Source: Massilia sp. R2A-15 (GTDB taxonomy: Bacteria; Pseudomonadota; Gammaproteobacteria; Burkholderiales; Burkholderiaceae_D). Taken from it: a stretch of 64,000 bases of DNA. The notes beneath the pieces were generated by a model that saw only the letters and a list, made by a program, of their open reading frames with translations, made no database searches and was not told the DNA's origin. Below are positions 18,975 through 29,958 of the stretch, piece after piece. Numbering within the stretch: position 1 is the first letter of the stretch; each line of letters starts with the position of its first letter. Position numbers and translations under genes: made by a program. The stretch spans positions 310,001 through 374,000 of the forward strand of contig NZ_CP131935.1 in assembly GCF_030704305.1 (NCBI RefSeq), in the 5' to 3' direction.

Positions 18975-19919
18975 TTAAGCGGCAAGCGCGCGATGCTGCG
19001 ACCGCCAGCGCGCGAGGGCGCCGGGAATGGCGGCGAGGTCGAGCACTGTGCCGGGCGCGAGGTGGCGGCGCGCCATCTCGACGCCGGCGCCGCCGCTCCA
19101 CACTTCGGCGTCGTCGCCCAGCCGGCTGCGCAGCTCGTTGACGTTGTCGACCGCGGCGCGCGGCGAGGTGACGCCGGAAAACGACAGCGCAACGATGTCG
19201 GCGCGCTGCGTGCGTGCCGCTTCGACGATGTCGCCCAGCGGGGTCTGCACGCCGAGCGATACGCAGTGGGCGCCTTCGAGCGCGAGCAGCGCTTCGGCCA
19301 TCAGCAGGCCAAGCCCGTGGCGCTCCTGCGGCACGGTGGTCAGGAGCACGCGCGGGGACGCCGATTCATGCGCCGACTGCGGCGTGGCGGCGACGATCGC
19401 CGCCCGCATCACGCTTTGCAGGATCTCGGAATACAGGTGCTCTTCGAACACCGCCAGGTCGCCGCGCGCCCATGCTTCGCCGACGGCGGATGTCAGCGGC
19501 GCGATCAGTTCGAGCACGCAGCGCTGCAATCCCATCAACAGCATCGATTGCGACAGGCGCTGGCGCAGCTCGGCGAGCTTGTGCGCGTTCAGCAGGTCGA
19601 GACAAGCGCGGATTTCCGGATCGTCCAGTCCGCGCACCGGCGCCGCGCTGGTGGGCCTGGCGCCCAGTTCCACCAGTTCGTCGGCGCCGAGCGCCATGAT
19701 CTTGCCGGGCCGGTAGCCCTGGTCGAGCAGGCGCTTGACCAGCGACAGGCGGTGCACCTGGTCGGGAGGATAGATGCGCTCGCCGTTGGCGTCGCGCTGC
19801 GGCCGGGGAAACCCGTAACGGCGTTCCCACACGCGCAGGGTCTCCTTCGCCACGCCGATGTCGCGCTCGACATCGCTGATGCTTAAGGATACGGCAGGAG
19901 AGGTGGCGTTGGTCATCAC
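18975..19919 (-). CDS. MerR-type regulator with B12-binding domain (CarH/LitR-like photoreceptor)
   Basis: A 314-residue regulator. A MerR winged helix (about 12-80, including TLRVWERRYGFPRPQR) is followed by a B12-binding helical bundle and a Rossmann B12 domain. The adenosylcobalamin contacts of CarH are present: W150-x9-E160-H161, and the cobalt-ligand motif E199-x-H201-xx-G204. In known members AdoCbl keeps a repressor tetramer on DNA in the dark and light breaks the Co-C bond and releases it. Here it faces, across 310 bases, a lipid-modification operon. It is upstream of ftsY on the same strand but 109 bases apart. The start could also be the ATG at 19916. Confidence 0.9.
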   Translation of the reverse strand: MMTNATSPAVSLSISDVERDIGVAKETLRVWERRYGFPRPQRDANGERIYPPDQVHRLSLVKRLLDQGYRPGKIMALGADELVELGARPTSAAPVRGLDDPEIRACLDLLNAHKLAELRQRLSQSMLLMGLQRCVLELIAPLTSAVGEAWARGDLAVFEEHLYSEILQSVMRAAIVAATPQSAHESASPRVLLTTVPQERHGLGLLMAEALLALEGAHCVSLGVQTPLGDIVEAARTQRADIVALSFSGVTSPRAAVDNVNELRSRLGDDAEVWSGGAGVEMARRHLAPGTVLDLAAIPGALARWRSQHRALAA

Positions 19920-19983
19920 GGGCTCGTAATCGGTAAAGGGCGGTTCTTGTGCAGGACATCGCCGCGCAATAGCGGCATTTCAC

Positions 19984-20022
19984 ATTCTACTTTAACAAGC
20001 AAACGATTCGACAGATTTGTCG
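19984..20022 (-). promoter_or_regulatory. candidate promoter and operator of the B12 regulator gene
   Basis: A -10-like TAGAAT (minus strand, 19989-19984), with the inverted repeat CGACA-GATT-TGTCG (20009-20022) lying where the -35 should be. No good -35 hexamer is seen. The position suits autoregulation. The TGTC/GACA half-sites match those in front of the divergent operon, in opposite arrangement. Confidence 0.45.
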
Positions 20023-20118
20023 GATGTTGTAAAAAAGAATTTATTCGGGGGCTTGGCCGCCGCGAAAATTTTTTCTCGATCTCCAGTCTCGTTTCACGCT
20101 GCAGGCGTAAAACGCCGG

Positions 20119-20147
20119 TCAACAAACCTGTCCAGGACAAATAGAAT
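20119..20147 (+). promoter_or_regulatory. candidate promoter of the lipid-modification operon with palindrome in the spacer
   Basis: TCAACA (20119-20124), a 17-base spacer and TAGAAT (20142-20147). The 11-base palindrome TGTCC-A-GGACA (20129-20139) is centred in the spacer, the place where MerR-type regulators bind. The hexamers are imperfect (4 and 5 matches of 6). Confidence 0.5.
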
Positions 20148-20189
20148 ATAGTGACGATTATTTCACGCTATTCGCGGCCTGAACAGGCT

Positions 20190-20202
20190 TTGTCCAAGAC
20201 AA
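20190..20202. promoter_or_regulatory. second TGTCC-type dyad in the operon leader
   Basis: TTGTC-CAA-GACAA, an inverted repeat whose centre is 62 bases (about six helical turns) from the centre of the first dyad at 20129-20139. It lies between the candidate start site and the first gene. Helical phasing would suit a tetrameric regulator. Confidence 0.5.
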
Positions 20203-20229
20203 TTTGGAAAACTACCAGACGGAGAATAT

Positions 20230-21516
20230 ATGAAGATCGCAGTAGTGGGCGCCGGGATCGCCGGTTTGTCGTGTGCGTATCGGCTGGCGCAGGCCTCGGC
20301 CGACGTCACATTGTTCGAAGCAGGCAATTATTTCGGCGGCCACAGCAACACGGTCGACGTAACGCTCGACGGCCGCAGCTTCGGCGTCGATACGGGCTTC
20401 CTGGTGTTTAACGATCGCACCTATCCGAACCTGGTCGCGCTATTTGCAGAGCTCGGGGTCGAGACCGCGCCGAGCGACATGTCGTTTTCGGTCCGGCTGC
20501 CGCGGGCGAACGGCCGCGCGCTCGAATGGGCCGGCGCCAGCCTCGACACCGTGTTCGCGCAGCGCGCCAACCTGCTCGATCCGCGTTTCCTGCGCATGGT
20601 GCGCGACATCCTGCGTTTCAATCGCGAAGCGACGGCGCTGGCGCAAGGAGGCGCGGCGCCCGACGTCGCGCTCGGCGCCTGGCTCGACCAGCATGGCTAC
20701 AGCGCCACCTTCCGCAACTGGTACCTGCTGCCGATGGCCGCCTGCATCTGGTCCTGTCCCTCCGACCAGATGCTGGCGTTTCCGTTGTCGACCTTCGTGC
20801 GCTTCTGCCACAACCACGGCCTGCTGCAGGTGAGCGACCGGCCGCAGTGGCGCACGGTGAAGGGCGGCTCGCGCAATTACGTCGACAAGATGCTGGCGGC
20901 TATTCCGTCGCGCCGCCTGCTCTCGCCGGTGCGTTCGGTGCGACGCGGCGCCGGCGGCGCGCATTCGGTGCGGATCGCCACGGCGGCGGGCGTCGAACAC
21001 TTCGACCAGGTCGTCATGGCCTGCCACAGCGACCAGTCGCTCGCGCTGCTTTCGGACGCGCGCGCCGAAGAGCGCGCGGTGTTGTCTGCGATCCGCTATC
21101 AGCAAAACCGCGCGGTGCTGCACACCGACGCGCGCTGCTTGCCGGCGCGGCGCAAGACGTGGTCGGCCTGGAATTACCAGAGCAGCGCGTCCGCGACGCC
21201 GGAGGTGTGCGTGCATTACCTGCTCAACATGCTGCAGCCGCTGCCATGCAGCGCGCCGGTGATCGTCTCGCTCAACCCGATCGAAGCGCCCGATCCGGCC
21301 AGTGTGCTGGGCGAATTCGATTATGCCCATCCGGTGTTCGACCGCGGGGCGGTGGCGGCGCAGCGCGGCATCGGCGCGATTCAGGGCGTGCAGGGCACCT
21401 GGTTCGCCGGCGCGTGGACCGGCTACGGCTTTCATGAAGACGGCCTTACATCCGGGCTGGGCGTTGCCGCTTCGCTGGCCGAGCTGATGGAGACGCGACA
21501 TCATGCAGCCGCCTGA
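20230..21516 (+). CDS. FAD-dependent oxidoreductase (amine-oxidase/desaturase-like)
   Basis: A 428-residue flavoprotein with the N-terminal dinucleotide-binding motif G7-AG-IA-G12 (VVGAGIAGLSCAYRLAQ) and an acidic residue ending the second strand (FEAGNYFGGH), as in protoporphyrinogen oxidase, amine oxidase and phytoene desaturase relatives. The C-terminal FAD block is FAGAWTGYGFHEDGL. AGACGGAG lies about 8 bases before the ATG. It is the first gene of an eight-gene operon and overlaps the DUF1365 gene by 14 bases. Relatives beside CFA-type methyltransferases take part in furan fatty acid synthesis in alphaproteobacteria; a lipid desaturase or oxidase role here is inference. Confidence 0.88.
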   Translation: MKIAVVGAGIAGLSCAYRLAQASADVTLFEAGNYFGGHSNTVDVTLDGRSFGVDTGFLVFNDRTYPNLVALFAELGVETAPSDMSFSVRLPRANGRALEWAGASLDTVFAQRANLLDPRFLRMVRDILRFNREATALAQGGAAPDVALGAWLDQHGYSATFRNWYLLPMAACIWSCPSDQMLAFPLSTFVRFCHNHGLLQVSDRPQWRTVKGGSRNYVDKMLAAIPSRRLLSPVRSVRRGAGGAHSVRIATAAGVEHFDQVVMACHSDQSLALLSDARAEERAVLSAIRYQQNRAVLHTDARCLPARRKTWSAWNYQSSASATPEVCVHYLLNMLQPLPCSAPVIVSLNPIEAPDPASVLGEFDYAHPVFDRGAVAAQRGIGAIQGVQGTWFAGAWTGYGFHEDGLTSGLGVAASLAELMETRHHAAA

Positions 21517-22309
21517 CTTCGGCATTCGCGCCGAACCGCAGTTGTGCTTCGGGCATGTGCGGCACCGGCGCCTGCGCCCGGTCGTCAACGCGTTCGAATA
21601 CCGCGCCTATTATGTGCGCCTGCCGCTGCGCAGCATGGACGCTGACGCCCCGCGCTGCGCGTTGTTTTCGCGCAACCGCTTCAACCTGCTGTCGTTCCAC
21701 GATGCCGATCACGGCGACGGCACGACCGGCCTGGTCGAATGGATCGACGCGCTGCTCGAAAAGGAGGGCGTGACCGACGCCGACGGCGAAATCTGGCTGC
21801 AGGCCATGCCGCGCGTGCTGGGCTTCGTGTTCAATCCGGTTTCGTTCTGGTTCTGCCATCGCGCCAGCGGCGAGCTGCGCGCCGTGCTGTGCGACGTGCG
21901 CAATACCTTCGGCGAACGCCACTTCTATTTGCTCGACGACGGCTTCGAGATCCCCAACGGCGGCGAAATCACCGCGCGCAAGCTGTTTCACGTCTCGCCG
22001 TTCTTCGCTGTCGAAGGCGCTTACCGTTTCCGCTTCATGCGCGTAGTGCGCGGCAGGAAAGGTTCGCTGGCCGAGACCACTGTCGCCACCATCGACTACG
22101 AGGATGCCGAGGGCCCCGCGCTGCAGACCAGCGTGTCCGGCGTCGGCGCACCGATCCGCACCGCCACCGCGGCCGCCGCTTTCTTCAAGTATCCGCTGAT
22201 GACGTTTGGCGTCATCGCCCGCATCCACATCCAGGCGCTGCGCCTCTGGCTCAAGCGCGTGCCGTTCCACTCGAAGCCCGCACCACCCAAACAGAAGGTG
22301 ACCCGATGA
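21503..22309 (+). CDS. DUF1365 protein
   Basis: A 268-residue protein of the DUF1365 family, with the typical opening CFGHVRHRRLRPVVNAFEY and the core VLGFVFNPVSFWFCH (about 111-125). Its biochemical role is unknown. Genes of this family sit almost always between a flavin amine oxidase-like gene and a cyclopropane synthase-like gene, as here, so it probably works on the same acyl chains. It is coupled to both neighbours by overlaps of 14 and 4 bases. Confidence 0.92.
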   Translation: MQPPDFGIRAEPQLCFGHVRHRRLRPVVNAFEYRAYYVRLPLRSMDADAPRCALFSRNRFNLLSFHDADHGDGTTGLVEWIDALLEKEGVTDADGEIWLQAMPRVLGFVFNPVSFWFCHRASGELRAVLCDVRNTFGERHFYLLDDGFEIPNGGEITARKLFHVSPFFAVEGAYRFRFMRVVRGRKGSLAETTVATIDYEDAEGPALQTSVSGVGAPIRTATAAAAFFKYPLMTFGVIARIHIQALRLWLKRVPFHSKPAPPKQKVTR

Positions 22310-23529
22310 CATCGATGCAAAAATTCGCCCCCCCCGGCACTTCCGTCCGAGCCGAATCGCCGCCGGCCGCCGCCCGCATCATCCTCAAGCTGCTGTCGTC
22401 GCTGAGGCATGGCGCGCTGGCGCTGCGTACGCCCGACGGCGCCAGCCGCCATTACGGCGACGATTCCGCGCCGGTGGCGCTGGAGCTGAAGAACTGGAAC
22501 CTGTTCAACGCGTCGATGCGATCCGGCGACATCGGCTTCGCGCAGACCTACATCGACGGCGACTGGAGCACCAGCAACCTGGCCGGCCTGGTCGAACTGC
22601 TGGCGCGTAACCGCGCGGCGATCGAGTCGCTGGTGTACGGCAGCTGGTGGGGCGGCCTGGCCTACCGTATCCGCCATCTGCTGAACCGAAACAGCAAGGC
22701 CGGCAGCCGCAAGAACATCCACGCGCACTACGACATCGGCAACCGGTTCTACGAACTCTGGCTGGACCCTTCCATGACCTATTCGAGCGCGCTGTTTGCG
22801 GGCGGGGCGGGGACCAGCCTGGAACTGGCGCAAGCGGCCAAATACGGGCGCATCCTCGACCAACTTGCGCTGGCGCCGGGCGCGCGGGTGCTGGAAATCG
22901 GCTGCGGCTGGGGCGGATTTGCCGAAATGGCCGCGCGCGCCGGCGCGCACGTGACCGGGCTGACGCTGTCGACCGAGCAGCTCGCGTATGCGCGCCAACG
23001 CATGATCAACGCCGGCCTGGCGGACCAGGCCGACCTGCGCCTGTGCGACTACCGCGACAGCGTCGGGCAATACGATGCGATCGCTTCGATCGAGATGTTC
23101 GAGGCGGTGGGCGAGAGCTACTGGCCGGGCTATTTCGAGTGCATCGCGCGCAGCCTGAAACCGGGCGGGCGGGCCTGCGTCCAGACCATCGTCATCGCCG
23201 ACGACCTGTTCGCGCGCTATCGCAAGGGCACCGATTTCATCCAGCAGTTCATTTTCCCGGGCGGGATGCTACCGTCGCCGTCGGTGTTCGAGCGGCTGGC
23301 GCGCGAGCATGGCCTGCAGGTGGTGGACAGATTCGGCTTCGGCATCGACTACGCCGACACGCTGGTGGCTTGGCGCCGCGCCTTCCATGCCCGGCTCGAT
23401 GCTGTCCGCGCTCAGGGCTTCGATGAAGTCTTCATCCGCACCTGGGAGTTCTACCTTTGCTACTGCGAGGCAGCGTTCAGGGCGCGCAATACTGACGTGA
23501 TGCACTTCACGCTGGTGAAGGCGTCATGA
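22306..23529 (+). CDS. CFA synthase-family SAM methyltransferase
   Basis: A 407-residue enzyme of the cyclopropane fatty acid synthase family, which methylates double bonds in phospholipid acyl chains using S-adenosylmethionine. Visible motifs are HYDIGNRFYELWLD (about 143-156), the SAM site EIGCGWGGFAEMAA (about 202-215) and IEMFEAVGE. The N-terminal acyl/phospholipid-binding domain (1-120) is present. The product could be a true cyclopropane synthase or a UfaM-type methylase that makes methylated unsaturated chains; the flavin oxidoreductase and DUF1365 neighbours favour the second. The start at 22306 overlaps the DUF1365 stop; the open frame upstream is shadow. Confidence 0.92.
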   Translation: MTSMQKFAPPGTSVRAESPPAAARIILKLLSSLRHGALALRTPDGASRHYGDDSAPVALELKNWNLFNASMRSGDIGFAQTYIDGDWSTSNLAGLVELLARNRAAIESLVYGSWWGGLAYRIRHLLNRNSKAGSRKNIHAHYDIGNRFYELWLDPSMTYSSALFAGGAGTSLELAQAAKYGRILDQLALAPGARVLEIGCGWGGFAEMAARAGAHVTGLTLSTEQLAYARQRMINAGLADQADLRLCDYRDSVGQYDAIASIEMFEAVGESYWPGYFECIARSLKPGGRACVQTIVIADDLFARYRKGTDFIQQFIFPGGMLPSPSVFERLAREHGLQVVDRFGFGIDYADTLVAWRRAFHARLDAVRAQGFDEVFIRTWEFYLCYCEAAFRARNTDVMHFTLVKAS

Positions 23530-24053
23530 TGCGCCGCCTGATCGCGGCGCTGGCGCTGGCGTGCGCCGCGGCGCTGGCGCAAGCTGCGCCGGCCCACATC
23601 GAAGCATCGGTCCCGCACGCGCGCCTGGCCGGTTCGGGCGTCTATACCTGGTTTACCTTGAAGATCTACACGGCGCAGCTGTGGGTGGGCGACCAGGGCT
23701 ACCGCGCCGATGCGCCGTTCGCGCTCGACCTGCGCTACGCGCGCAAGCTGCATGGGCGGAAGATCGCCGAGGCGAGCGCGGAGCAAATGGAAAAGATCGG
23801 CGCCGGCAGTGCGTCCGAACGCAAGGCGTGGCTGCAGAAGATGCTGGCGATTTTCCCCGACGTGGGCGAGGGAACCCACATCACCGGCGTGTTCGTTCCC
23901 GGCGCCGGCGCGCTGTTCTACCTCGATGGCAGGCCGATTGGCCGCATCGACGATCCCGATTTCGCGCGGGCGTTTGCCCGCATCTGGCTCGACCCAGCGA
24001 CCACCGCGCCGGAATTGCGCGCGGCGCTGCTGAAACAGGCGGCGCCGCGATGA
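23526..24053 (+). CDS. exported chalcone isomerase-like protein
   Basis: A 175-residue protein with a signal peptide (about 1-21, AQA-A). It belongs to the bacterial chalcone isomerase-like family: GSGVYTWFTLKIYTAQLWVG, then FALDLRYARKLHG, and a helical C-terminal part with FVPGAGALFYLDGRPIG. The plant fold binds hydrophobic ligands, and fatty-acid-binding relatives are known, so a periplasmic fatty-acid-binding role in this operon is plausible. It overlaps both neighbours by four bases. Confidence 0.85.
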   Translation: MMRRLIAALALACAAALAQAAPAHIEASVPHARLAGSGVYTWFTLKIYTAQLWVGDQGYRADAPFALDLRYARKLHGRKIAEASAEQMEKIGAGSASERKAWLQKMLAIFPDVGEGTHITGVFVPGAGALFYLDGRPIGRIDDPDFARAFARIWLDPATTAPELRAALLKQAAPR

Positions 24054-25282
24054 AGCCGCTCGGCTGGCCAAACCTGCTGTGCTACGGCGCGTTCGGCCTG
24101 CCGCTTGCCATGGTCGCACTGCCGATCTACGTGTACCTGCCCCAGTTCTACGCCGAGCGCGCCGGGCTGCCGCTGGCGCTGATCGGCGCCTTGCTGCTGG
24201 CCGCGCGCATTGCGGCCGCTTTTATCGACCCGCTGCTGGGCTGGTGGATCGCGCGCGGACACAGCGCCTACCCGCGCTTCGTCGCGTTGGCGCTGACCCC
24301 ACTGCTGGCAGGCTTCCTTGGCCTCTTCAATCCGCCGGCGATGGGCGGCGGGGCCACGATGGGGTGGTTCGGCGCGACGCTGATGCTGGTCTACTTCGGC
24401 TTCAGCCTCGCCACCATCGCGCACCAGAGCTGGGGCGCCGCATTGACCGCCGCGCCCGCGCTGCGCGCGCGCGTGACGGGCGTGCGCGAAGGCTTCGGCC
24501 TGGCCGGCGTGGTGCTGGCCGCCGCCGTCACTGCGATGGCCGGCTATGGCGGCCTTTCCGCCGTCTTCGCCGCGGCGCTGGCGGCTGGGGCGGCGCTGCT
24601 GCTGGCCAGGGCCGTGCGCCCCAGCGGCGCGGCGTCCGTTGCGCCGCCGCACTGGCGCGAGCTGGTCCTGCCGTTTCGCCAGCCGCGCTTCCGTGCGCTG
24701 TTTGCCGTGCTGCTCGTGAACGGCGTAGCCTCGGCGATTCCCGCCACGCTGTTCCTGTTTTTCGCCGCCGACCGGCTGCGTCTGTCGTCGCTGTCCGGCG
24801 GGTTCCTGATCCTGTATTTCTGCGCCGCCGCGCTGTCGATACCGGTCTGGGTTGCGCTGGCCCGGCGCGTCGGCGAGGCGCGCGCGTGGACCGCTGCGAT
24901 GCTGGCGTCGGCGCTGGTGTTCGTCTGGGCCTTCGGCCTCGCGCCAGGCGCCGCATGGGCATTCGGCGCGATCTGCTTTCTGTCCGGCCTTGCGCTGGGG
25001 GCAGAGCTGGCGCTGCCGCCCGCCTTGCTGGCCGGCGTCATCGGCAAGGCCGGCCACGGCGCCGGGCGCGAAGCGGCGTATTTCGGCGTCTGGAACTGGG
25101 GCGTGCAAATCACGCTGGCGCTGGCGGCAGGCATCGCCTTGCCCCTACTGGGATGGTTCGGCTACGAGCCGGGGCGGCCCGGCGCGGCCACCGAACTGGC
25201 GGCGGCATACGCGCTGCTGCCGTGCGTGTTGAAACTGGCGGCCGCCACGATGCTGTGGCGCGCGCCGCTGAGAGACTTTTAA
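24050..25282 (+). CDS. MFS transporter (glycoside-cation symporter-like)
   Basis: A 410-residue membrane protein with twelve predicted helices and the MFS_2/MelB-like beginning LCYGAFGLPLAMVALPIYVYLPQFYAERAGLPLALIG. An Asp in helix 2 (AAFIDPLLGWW) matches the conserved family position. Homologues occur in the same flavin-oxidase/CFA operons of other proteobacteria, where the cargo is unknown; a lipid or lipid-precursor role is inference. The start is fixed by the ATGA overlap with the chalcone isomerase-like gene. Confidence 0.85.
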   Translation: MKPLGWPNLLCYGAFGLPLAMVALPIYVYLPQFYAERAGLPLALIGALLLAARIAAAFIDPLLGWWIARGHSAYPRFVALALTPLLAGFLGLFNPPAMGGGATMGWFGATLMLVYFGFSLATIAHQSWGAALTAAPALRARVTGVREGFGLAGVVLAAAVTAMAGYGGLSAVFAAALAAGAALLLARAVRPSGAASVAPPHWRELVLPFRQPRFRALFAVLLVNGVASAIPATLFLFFAADRLRLSSLSGGFLILYFCAAALSIPVWVALARRVGEARAWTAAMLASALVFVWAFGLAPGAAWAFGAICFLSGLALGAELALPPALLAGVIGKAGHGAGREAAYFGVWNWGVQITLALAAGIALPLLGWFGYEPGRPGAATELAAAYALLPCVLKLAAATMLWRAPLRDF

Positions 25283-25294
25283 TAAGGGGACACC

Positions 25295-25816
25295 ATGAAA
25301 ATCTTCGCCTTGCTTGGTATGGCGGCGCTGTGCGCGGGATGCAGCGCGCCGGCGCCGGATCAATATGCGAGCCAGCAGCCGCGGCTCGACGTCCAGCGCT
25401 ATTTCAACGGCACGCTCGACGCCCACGGCATGTTCCAGGACCGCTCCGGCGCTGTCGTCAAGCGCTTCGTCGTGGTCATGCACTGCCAGTGGCAGGGCGA
25501 CACCGGCACGCTGGACGAGGACTTCACGTACTCGGACGGCACCCGGCAGAAGCGCGTCTGGACGCTGCACAAGGCCGGGGATGGCAGCTTCACCGCGACC
25601 GCGCCCGACGTGGTGGGAACCGCGCACGGCGTCGCCGCCGGAAACGCGCTGCGCTGGAAGTACGTGCTGGCGCAGCCTGTCGGCGACAAGGTGTACAACG
25701 TCGACATGGAGGACTGGATGTTCCTGATCGACGACAAGGTCATGCTGAACCGCACCGCAATGAGCAAGTTCGGCGTGAGCCTGGGCAGCGTGACGTTGTC
25801 GTTCTCGAAGCGATGA
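25295..25816 (+). CDS. DUF3833 lipoprotein
   Basis: A 173-residue lipoprotein (lipobox LCAGC, C16) of the DUF3833 family. The mature protein starts with YFNGTLDAHGMFQDRSG and continues with a lipocalin-like set of strands (FTYSDGTRQKRVW, DWMFLIDDKVMLNRTAMSKFG). Its partners here are the usual ones for the family. It probably resides at the inner face of the outer membrane or in the inner membrane and may bind the modified lipid. AAGGGG precedes the ATG. Confidence 0.9.
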   Translation: MKIFALLGMAALCAGCSAPAPDQYASQQPRLDVQRYFNGTLDAHGMFQDRSGAVVKRFVVVMHCQWQGDTGTLDEDFTYSDGTRQKRVWTLHKAGDGSFTATAPDVVGTAHGVAAGNALRWKYVLAQPVGDKVYNVDMEDWMFLIDDKVMLNRTAMSKFGVSLGSVTLSFSKR

Positions 25817-26580
25817 ACCCGCGCATTCACGACTGGAGCGGCAGGCGCGTATGGGTGATCGGCGCCTCGAGCGGCATCGGCGCGGCCTGCGCCCGGCAGC
25901 TGCTGCGGCTGGGCGCCCGGGTTGCGCTGTCGGCGCGCGACGCCGCGGCGCTGGAACGCGAAGCGTCGGCGTCGACGCACGCGCTCGCAGCGCCGCTGGA
26001 CGTGACGGACCACGCCAGCGTGCTGCGCGCGCGCGACGCCATCGTTGCGGCATGGGGCGGCATCGACCTGGTGCTGGTGGTCGCCGGCGGCTATAACGAG
26101 ATGCGCGCCGACAGCTTCGACCTCGCCGCCGCCAACCGCCTGATCGACCTGAACCTGCGCGGCGTATTCAACTGCCTCGACGCGGCGTTGCCGGTGTTGC
26201 TCGGGCAGGGCGCCGGCGGAGTGGGCATCGTGGCCTCCGTTGCCGGCTACGGCGGCCTGCCGAAGGCGCTGGTGTACGGACCCACCAAGGCGGCGCTGAT
26301 CAACCTGACCGAGTCGCTGTTCCTCGACCTGCGCGCGCGCGGCATTGCCGTGTACCAGATCAATCCCGGATTCGTCGATACGCCGCTGACGGCCAATAAC
26401 GATTTCCGCATGCCGGCGCTGATGAGCGCCGAGGACGCCGCCGCCGAGATGATCGCCGGGATCGAGCGCGGGCAGTTTCAGATTCACTTCCCCAAACGCT
26501 TCACTAACAGCATGCGGCTGGCGCGGCTGCTGCCATACCGCTTGTATTTCTGGCTAATCCACAAAGTGACTGGCCTATGA
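25813..26580 (+). CDS. short-chain dehydrogenase/reductase
   Basis: A 255-residue classical SDR. The cofactor motif is G17-ASSGI-G23, the catalytic residues are S142, Y155 and K159 (YGPTK). The usual NAG motif is replaced by VAGGYN. The C-terminus (after about 225) is basic and hydrophobic and may touch the membrane. The substrate is unknown; the operon suggests an oxidised fatty acyl or small aldehyde/ketone. It overlaps both neighbours. Confidence 0.9.
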   Translation: MNPRIHDWSGRRVWVIGASSGIGAACARQLLRLGARVALSARDAAALEREASASTHALAAPLDVTDHASVLRARDAIVAAWGGIDLVLVVAGGYNEMRADSFDLAAANRLIDLNLRGVFNCLDAALPVLLGQGAGGVGIVASVAGYGGLPKALVYGPTKAALINLTESLFLDLRARGIAVYQINPGFVDTPLTANNDFRMPALMSAEDAAAEMIAGIERGQFQIHFPKRFTNSMRLARLLPYRLYFWLIHKVTGL

Positions 26581-27008
26581 ATTACGAGACCGAACTCGAA
26601 CGATTGGTGCAGTTTTACGAGAACCTGAGCGAAGCGTCGCTGGCGCACCTTCCGGAGATCTACGCGGGCGATGCCCGGTTCAAGGATCCCTTCAACGAAG
26701 TGCGCGGCATCGAGCCGATCGCGGCGATTTTCCGCCACATGTATCAGCAGGTCGATGAGCCGCGCTTCATCGTCAACACCCGCGTGCTGCAGGGCGCCGA
26801 TGCCTTCCTGGTTTGGGATTTCACTTTCCGGATGAAGCGGTTTTCGCGTGCGCGCCAGTGCATCCGCGGCGCCACGCATATCCGCTTCGATGCGGACGGC
26901 CTGGTGGCGCTGCACCGTGATTATTGGGATGCGGCCGAGGAGCTGTACGAGAAGCTGCCCGTGCTGGGAGGGCTGATGCGCTGGCTGAAAAGCGCGGCCA
27001 ATCGCTGA
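26577..27008 (+). CDS. NTF2/SnoaL-like protein
   Basis: A 143-residue protein with the cone-shaped SnoaL/NTF2 pattern: an opening helix (LVQFYENLSEASLAHLPEIYAGDARFKDPFNEVRG) and the central VLQGADAFLVWDFTFRM strands, ending HRDYWDAAEELYEKLP. Asp28-Asp and His residues in the pocket suggest an isomerase or hydrolase, or simple ligand binding. It closes the eight-gene operon, and a perfect long hairpin follows 24 bases later. Confidence 0.85.
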   Translation: MNYETELERLVQFYENLSEASLAHLPEIYAGDARFKDPFNEVRGIEPIAAIFRHMYQQVDEPRFIVNTRVLQGADAFLVWDFTFRMKRFSRARQCIRGATHIRFDADGLVALHRDYWDAAEELYEKLPVLGGLMRWLKSAANR

Positions 27009-27031
27009 CGACAGTGGCCAGATAGCTCAGT

Positions 27032-27097
27032 ATGGGTTCCAGCCTTCGCTGGAACGACGGTCTCGAGGCTGTCGTTCCAGCGAAGGCTGGAACCCAT
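27032..27097. repeat. BIME-like inverted REP pair, family B, copy 2
   Basis: Two perfect 27-base inverted arms (27032-27058 and 27071-27097) separated by a 12-base loop. Each arm itself holds a GTTCCAGC/GCTGGAAC hairpin. The element lies between two convergent genes, where it could end transcription in both directions. Confidence 0.85.
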
Positions 27098-27108
27098 GCT
27101 GAATCCGG

Positions 27109-29620: not shown

Positions 29621-29948
29621 GTGATGCAGGCCAGGACAGCCGCTGGCTGGCGCGTAATGCGCCGGCGGGAGGAAGGTCCGGACTCCATAGAGCAGGGTGA
29701 CGGTTAACGGCCGTCCGCCGAAAGCCGCAAGGTATAAGGCGAGGAATAGGGCCACAGAGACGAGCGTATTAAGTTACGGTGAAACGCGGTAACCTCCACC
29801 TGGAGCAATCCCAAATAGGCACGCGTTGAGGCGGCTCGCGGAGCGTGCGGGTAGGGAGCTTGAGCGCCTGAGCAATCAGGCGCCTAGAGGAATGGCTGTC
29901 ATAGCGGGCAACCGCCGTAACAAAATCCGGCCTACCGGCCTGCTTCAC
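29621..29948 (+). ncRNA. rnpB: RNase P RNA, bacterial class A
   Basis: This is the catalytic RNA that trims the 5' leader of tRNA precursors. The signature blocks are all present: GAGGAAGGTCCGGACTCC near 29669, AGAGCAGGGTGACGG, GGCGAGGAATAGGGCCACAGAGACGA-type J sequence, ACGGTGAAACGCGGTAACCTCCACC, and GGGTAGGGAGCTTGAGC followed by GAGGAATGGCTGTC. The ends pair in helix P1: GTGA-TGCAGGCC at 29621-29632 with GGCCTGC-TTCAC at 29937-29948. The precise ends are estimates. Confidence 0.95.
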
Positions 29949-29958
29949 ACTATATACA

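Follow-up and report, generated by a model that had tools for sequence, protein, structure and literature searches.

A candidate B12-dependent, light-released repressor facing a furan-lipid-type operon in Massilia and other betaproteobacteria

What does a regulator with cobalamin-binding domains control when it stands opposite a set of lipid genes? The question is raised by the genome of Massilia sp. R2A-15, a single contig of 5.03 Mb, of which a stretch of 64,000 nucleotides (positions 310001-374000, hereafter the window) carries a MerR-type regulator gene divergent from an operon of eight genes (20230-27008). An earlier note, made from the letters alone, took the regulator for a CarH/LitR-type B12 photoreceptor that serves this lineage in place of an extracytoplasmic function (ECF) sigma factor and ChrR, and proposed a protective, perhaps furan-type, fatty acid as the product. 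The reading preferred here, with a probability of roughly 0.58, is that the regulator is a B12-domain protein of the LitR/CarH type that represses the furan-lipid (ufa) operon and is released by light.

Parts of this picture were already known: light-induced ufaM beside a LitR gene, B12 sensors that lack the upper axial histidine, and the Ufa pathway. New here are the operator palindrome, its tracking of the regulator, the missing equivalent of CarH His132 and the ECF or TetR genes that stand upstream of some ufa operons lacking the regulator. A link between LitR proteins and light-controlled lipid genes is not new, having been published for Pseudomonas (PMC9758184). We found no published case of a B12-complete LitR over betaproteobacterial ufa genes in a search that left most subscription literature outside, and such absence is unproven.

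The regulator and its B12 pocket

Pfam models recognise a MerR_1 domain (PF13411; 53.9 bits against a cut-off of 21.6), a B12-binding_2 domain (32.2 bits, cut-off 23) and a C-terminal B12-binding domain (40.5 bits, cut-off 32.1). The last of these distinguishes the protein from the class II LitR type, and its predicted domain content places it in class I LitR/CarH. Residues 10-301 align with Thermus CarH, and the CarH structures 5c8d and 3whp are matched over nearly the full length. The score against the NCBIfam CarH equivalog NF052513 is 127.6 bits, below the cut-off of 400. The gene is unique in its genome, where its sole match is itself (E <= 1e-5).

Counted along the alignment, with CarH residues numbered as in PMC10442372 and PMC11796333, W150 corresponds to W131, E160/H161 to E141/H142, H201 to H177, Q225 to D201 and A151 to H132. 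The residues that the earlier note had singled out as adenosylcobalamin (AdoCbl) signatures, W150, E160-H161, E199, H201 and G204, all stand where it placed them; the alanine at 151 had been missed. A published light signature consists of four motifs, GxxW, EH, GxxH and GxxxP (PMC11796333). Class I motifs present in the regulator are G147xxW150, E160H161 and G223xxxP227, together with the lower-ligand H201.

Conservation was counted in the best 80 of 573 regulator relatives retrieved by patterns of the helix-turn-helix (HTH) region, the nearest named ones coming from Massilia, Duganella, Rugamonas, Janthinobacterium and others, which suggests an Oxalobacteraceae-type betaproteobacterium; all counts out of 80 refer to this set of named loci. 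W150, E160 and H161 are each found in 80/80 and H201 in 78/80. At position 151, 47 loci have Ala, 17 have Met and the other 16 have Ser, Val, Ile, Thr or Leu. Histidine occurs there in none of the 80, nor in any of the 50 family loci aligned at this position, one of which (L080, a 7-residue fragment with a stop in the gene) is a gap row. The conserved pocket suggests that the regulator binds AdoCbl. A PduO-type adenosyltransferase gene is present in the window genome, and a search of that genome for the CobO type found none.

In CarH, His132 is the upper ligand of the lit state (PMC10442372). With alanine at 151, the classic bis-His lit state would therefore not be possible in the regulator. 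The missing histidine bars that state but not a light response, because CtMerR, which has Arg at the His132 place, still passes from tetramer to monomer in light (PMC11796333). The class proposed by the earlier note stands for the domain type, by Pfam and by alignment with CarH, and does not extend to the upper ligand.

An operator palindrome that accompanies the regulator

Between the divergent start codons of the window lie two copies, 62 bp apart, of a palindrome with the consensus TTGTCnnnGACAA and the core TGTCnnnGACA. In upstream regions of about 400 bases each, the core recurs at 71 of the 80 named loci (shuffle mean 0.385, maximum 3 in 200 shuffles), and half-sites set at other spacers (0-2, 4-8) are found in 0 or 1 of the 80. 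Neighbouring copies in named loci (n=18) are spaced by 62 in ten cases and by 63 in two. A third TGTCnnnGACA of the window, at 25678, was considered as an operator and rejected; it falls within the coding sequence for the DUF3833 protein and is regarded as a chance match.

A second set of 145 family genomes is not independent of the first, because some contigs are common to both. The tandem form was found in 20 of these genomes, and in one genome with the control. It stands beside the regulator in 15 of the 20, one of which (G015) has an additional tandem site elsewhere, and before ufa at a contig start in another (G091); in the remaining four it lies elsewhere, apparently in coding sequence.

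The palindrome follows the regulator from locus to locus. Where the regulator is adjacent, 25 of 29 loci have the palindrome no more than 400 bp from ufaD, and in the four misses ufaD is 2.0-2.1 kb away from the regulator; the window locus is not among the 29, and L126 was excluded for its short upstream DNA. At loci without an adjacent regulator the palindrome is near ufaD in 2 of 31, and both genomes concerned (G039 and G088) encode the regulator elsewhere. These 31 comprise eight loci from regulator-bearing genomes, two of them with the palindrome, and 23 from regulator-free genomes, none with it. The shared palindrome is probably the regulator's operator.

The earlier note had paired regulator and operon functionally and proposed a search of neighbouring genomes for the same arrangement. 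Conserved synteny and the shared operator bear the pairing out: among 69 named betaproteobacterial loci with more than 5 kb of upstream DNA, 48 have ufaD, ufaO and ufaM all upstream of, and divergent to, the regulator. Rather than being confined to one lineage, as had been supposed, the pairing is spread through betaproteobacteria. The ufa operon also often exists without the regulator, since 86 of the 145 family genomes have UfaO-type genes and 48 have the regulator. For loci without an adjacent regulator, the upstream genes of 13 were listed and genes from seven were scanned. Upstream lie an ECF sigma factor with an RskA-type anti-sigma factor in L122, an ECF sigma factor in L128, TetR regulators in L135 and L144, and a photolyase-related protein in L138; no regulator was seen in the one gene scanned from each of L132 and L141. 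L141 and L144 come from regulator-bearing genomes. The supposed use of another regulator in place of ECF is supported by these loci, as two of the seven scanned have an ECF gene upstream of the same operon and two have TetR. As had been reported, no ECF, ChrR or photolyase gene is among the nine genes of the locus, though no genome-wide search was made for ECF genes or for the DPRP relatives of photolyase.

The interval between the operators holds, in 12 of 13 tandem relatives, a promoter that consists of a TTGACA-like box, a spacer of 17 bp and GATTAT or TATATT and begins 16 bp after the start of operator 1 (the exception is L041). Such a layout fits repression.

Operon product, gene company and further candidate targets

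All nine open reading frames (ORFs) of regulator and operon are present and open, and Pfam confirmed the eight operon families that the earlier note had named (Table 1). The seven junctions of the operon all overlap save one 12-base gap (25282/25295). Its first three genes belong, at the level of Pfam family, to UfaD, UfaO (DUF1365) and UfaM, the association of FAD/NAD oxidoreductase, DUF1365 protein and methylase by which Ufa operons are recognised. In R. sphaeroides, UfaM, UfaD and UfaO are sufficient for the furan fatty acid 9M5-FuFA (PMC7380195). A furan-type fatty acid, as already suggested, is the best guess for the product. A methylated or otherwise modified fatty acid other than a furan is unlikely, if well worth keeping in view: the assignment is by Pfam family only, and the operon carries five genes beyond the trio. 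CMAS proteins also make cyclopropane chains, and the top PDB match of the methylase is the cyclopropane fatty acid (CFA) synthase 6bqc of E. coli. What speaks for the furan is the trio itself, found together as in the furan pathway (PMC7380195).

Upstream of the named regulators lie folE2 in 16 of the 80 loci and a glutathione peroxidase gene in 24. In 14 loci the regulator has a gene for a photolyase or a photolyase-related protein nearby. Neighbour ORFs were chosen by GC-position score, and some start codons are possibly wrong. In L224, on a contig titled as a metagenome-assembled genome (MAG) of Bordetella parapertussis, the immediate divergent neighbour of the regulator is a photolyase gene, and the ufa genes stand on the opposite side. 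Fourteen Duganella-type loci (L176 and L178-L190, from Duganella, Rugamonas, Pseudoduganella, Massilia sp. Root418 and MAGs) have no ufa gene within reach but retain the regulator together with one or more palindromes; no conserved small gene was seen beneath the operators in 11 such loci examined. L177, of the same group, does have ufa. In L064, on the same contig as L186, the next gene encodes a porin.

A second target is likely to be a PNPOX-like (Pyrid_ox_like) gene of the window genome (L154:4857-5360), which is preceded at a distance of about 65 bp by TTGTCCATGACAG. The gene occurs in 17 of 24 genomes searched, one of which (L160) has no upstream DNA. Of 12 other genomes that carry the regulator (in the case of G091, ufa and operators), 7 have a palindrome with at most one mismatch before this gene; of 4 regulator-free genomes, none does. 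Two further candidates were set aside. The one photolyase found genome-wide by PF03441, at 3.69 Mb, has no operator upstream in the window genome. A genome-wide regulon was not recoverable by operator search, as TTGTCnnnGACAA with at most one mismatch gave 125 sites in the window genome against 121 for the reversed control. A 15-base operator form was sought in 24 other genomes. The 14 that bear the regulator gave 162 sites to 89 for the controls, and the 10 that lack it gave 126 to 93, a weak difference that is not used as support.

Table 1. Features of the regulator-ufa locus (window positions unless a locus is named)
Feature	Position	Strand	Basis
MerR-type regulator, both B12-binding domains (LitR/CarH-like), A151 at CarH His132 place	18975..19919	-	Pfam and alignment
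Operator 1, CTGTCCAGGACAA	20128..20140	.	Palindrome, predicted
Operator 2, TTGTCCAAGACAA	20190..20202	.	Palindrome, predicted; 62 bp from operator 1
UfaD-type NAD/FAD oxidoreductase	20230..21516	+	Pfam Amino_oxidase/NAD_binding_8; family role from PMC7380195
UfaO-type DUF1365 protein	21503..22309	+	Pfam; family role from PMC7380195
UfaM-type CMAS/CFA-like methyltransferase	22306..23529	+	Pfam CMAS; PDB match
Chalcone-isomerase-like protein	23526..24053	+	Pfam Chalcone_3
MFS_2 transporter	24050..25282	+	Pfam MFS_2
DUF3833 protein	25295..25816	+	Pfam DUF3833
Short-chain dehydrogenase/reductase (SDR) oxidoreductase	25813..26580	+	Pfam adh_short
NTF2/SnoaL-like protein	26577..27008	+	Pfam SnoaL_2
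Palindrome and PNPOX-type gene	L154:4790-5360; window-genome position about 1975789		

Between the operon end and a convergent thiamine pyrophosphate (TPP)-enzyme gene lies a near-perfect inverted repeat of 33 pairs (27029-27100; DNA fold z-score -12.4), which may serve as a terminator or belong to a dispersed family of palindromic repeats. An RNase P RNA class A gene (211.8 bits) is found at 29623-29950.

Proposed mechanism, alternatives and known systems

In darkness the regulator would bind AdoCbl, with His201 as the lower ligand and Trp150 and Glu160 as the cap, and would for that reason stay oligomeric on both TGTCnnnGACA operators; the ufa operon, and probably the regulator's own gene too, would then be shut. 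Light would cleave the Co-C bond, the oligomer would loosen and the operon would be transcribed. UfaM would then methylate vaccenoyl chains, UfaD would desaturate them and UfaO would close the furan ring with O2, to give a membrane furan fatty acid that may protect against photo-oxidants. With Ala at residue 151, the lit state would form without the bis-His ligation of CarH, as in CtMerR, perhaps via movement of the conserved Glu160. We infer that light is the signal and that control is by repression rather than activation.

Several observations weigh against this reading. The upper axial histidine of CarH is missing, and reports disagree on whether CarH disassembles without it: the H132A variant is mostly still tetrameric after light, and the same paper cites an earlier report of disassembly (PMC10442372). 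The GxxH light motif is replaced by Q198-E-R-H201, the Gly being kept in just 8 of the 80 named relatives. In the window alone the operator core is weak, with 3 matches where 0.8 are expected and 3 of 100 shuffles reaching 3, and the ufaD promoter of the window matches the consensus poorly. The 14 ufa-less loci, the photolyase without an operator and the lack of a clear genome-wide excess of operators count on the same side.

The features of the pocket would also suit a regulator that senses the AdoCbl level or redox rather than light, the B12-bound form repressing and cofactor loss or oxidation releasing the operon. The missing His132 equivalent, read with the mostly tetrameric state of CarH H132A after light (PMC10442372), and Gln198, which breaks the GxxH motif, both fit such a sensor, and the glutathione peroxidase genes suit oxidative stress as well as light. 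It is nevertheless improbable, given that CtMerR monomerises in light without the histidine (PMC11796333) and that folE2 and photolyase-type genes keep the regulator company, with a light-induced counterpart in Pseudomonas (PMC9758184). Pseudomonas also supplies the model for another arrangement, in which the B12 domains do not sense light and a separate LOV or BLUF photoreceptor acts on the regulator, as PmSB-LOV does on PmlR2; a LitR over a similar operon works in this way there (PMC9758184). For the regulator described here this is quite unlikely, as the pocket residues lost in class II LitR are kept almost without exception, and no LOV gene was recognised among the scanned neighbours, although no genome-wide LOV search was made.

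The sign of control has an alternative of its own, a MerR-type activator working on a long-spaced or weak promoter. MerR regulators typically sit in the promoter spacer, and the best consensus promoter of the window has operator 1 in just such a place, within the TCAACA-TAGAAT spacer. That match is at chance level, however (one found, shuffle mean 1.1), and the promoters of 12 of the 13 tandem relatives lie between the operators, with spacers of 17 bp. Activation is a long shot on these grounds, and light-released repression is preferred.

A wider version of the light-released repressor can be put forward, for which the odds seem to us a little short of even. A betaproteobacteria-wide branch of B12 photoreceptors without a bis-His lit state would repress ufa genes until released by light and, in relatives, would also control neighbouring folate, peroxidase and photolyase genes. 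The promoter would be held between palindromes 62-63 bp apart, a distance of about six helical turns, which a single oligomer may span in the dark. On the same kind of operon, Pseudomonas has a LOV-driven system, to which this would be the counterpart that reads B12. If so, different bacteria have placed one membrane-protection operon under a B12 regulator, a LOV/LitR pair, ECF systems or TetR regulators, and furan fatty acids would be worth seeking in betaproteobacteria. Since the branch occurs naturally and lacks the His132 equivalent in a pocket that is otherwise intact, it also offers a direct test of the need for His132, with the operator as a ready reporter.

In Rhodobacter, the ufa genes are under sigma/anti-sigma (RpoE-ChrR) control. 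The UfaM, UfaD and UfaO trio is the same there (PMC7380195). The window genome differs in having no match to the ChrR model TIGR02451, its two Cupin_7 matches falling under the cut-off. CarH of T. thermophilus, a class I LitR, shares the MerR HTH, the four-helix and Rossmann B12 domains and the equivalents of W131, E141, H142 and H177. In contrast to CarH, the regulator has Ala151 for H132 and Gln225 for D201, faces lipid genes and has as operator a 13-bp palindrome, of which the window holds two copies 62 bp apart. CtMerR is likewise a B12 sensor without the upper histidine, but its GxxH is QxxH in the regulator, and the accessible part of PMC11796333 does not describe its target genes. In Vibrio cholerae, a MerR-type protein (VCA0056) and ChrR account for the blue-light response, in which a CFA-type synthase gene is induced (PMC5241685). 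Unlike the locus described here, that MerR gene sits with a photolyase gene, and the word 'cobalamin' is absent from the accessible text of PMC5241685.

There is also a likeness in gene content with the loci of the class II LitR proteins PmlR and PplR of Pseudomonas. These proteins lack the second B12 domain and have a LOV partner, PmlR2 being released by PmSB-LOV, and their operator is TGTACA-N12-TGTACA rather than TGTCnnnGACA (PMC9758184). The LitR gene stands in a light-induced cluster with UfaM, FAD oxidoreductase, SDR and phrB genes, and folE, elsewhere, is light-induced too (PMC9758184). In the P. mendocina pmlR1 cluster, light raises ufaM and phrB 25-33-fold, and it is this light-induced set of ufaM, phrB, FAD oxidoreductase, SDR and folE that the genes around the betaproteobacterial regulators resemble (PMC9758184).

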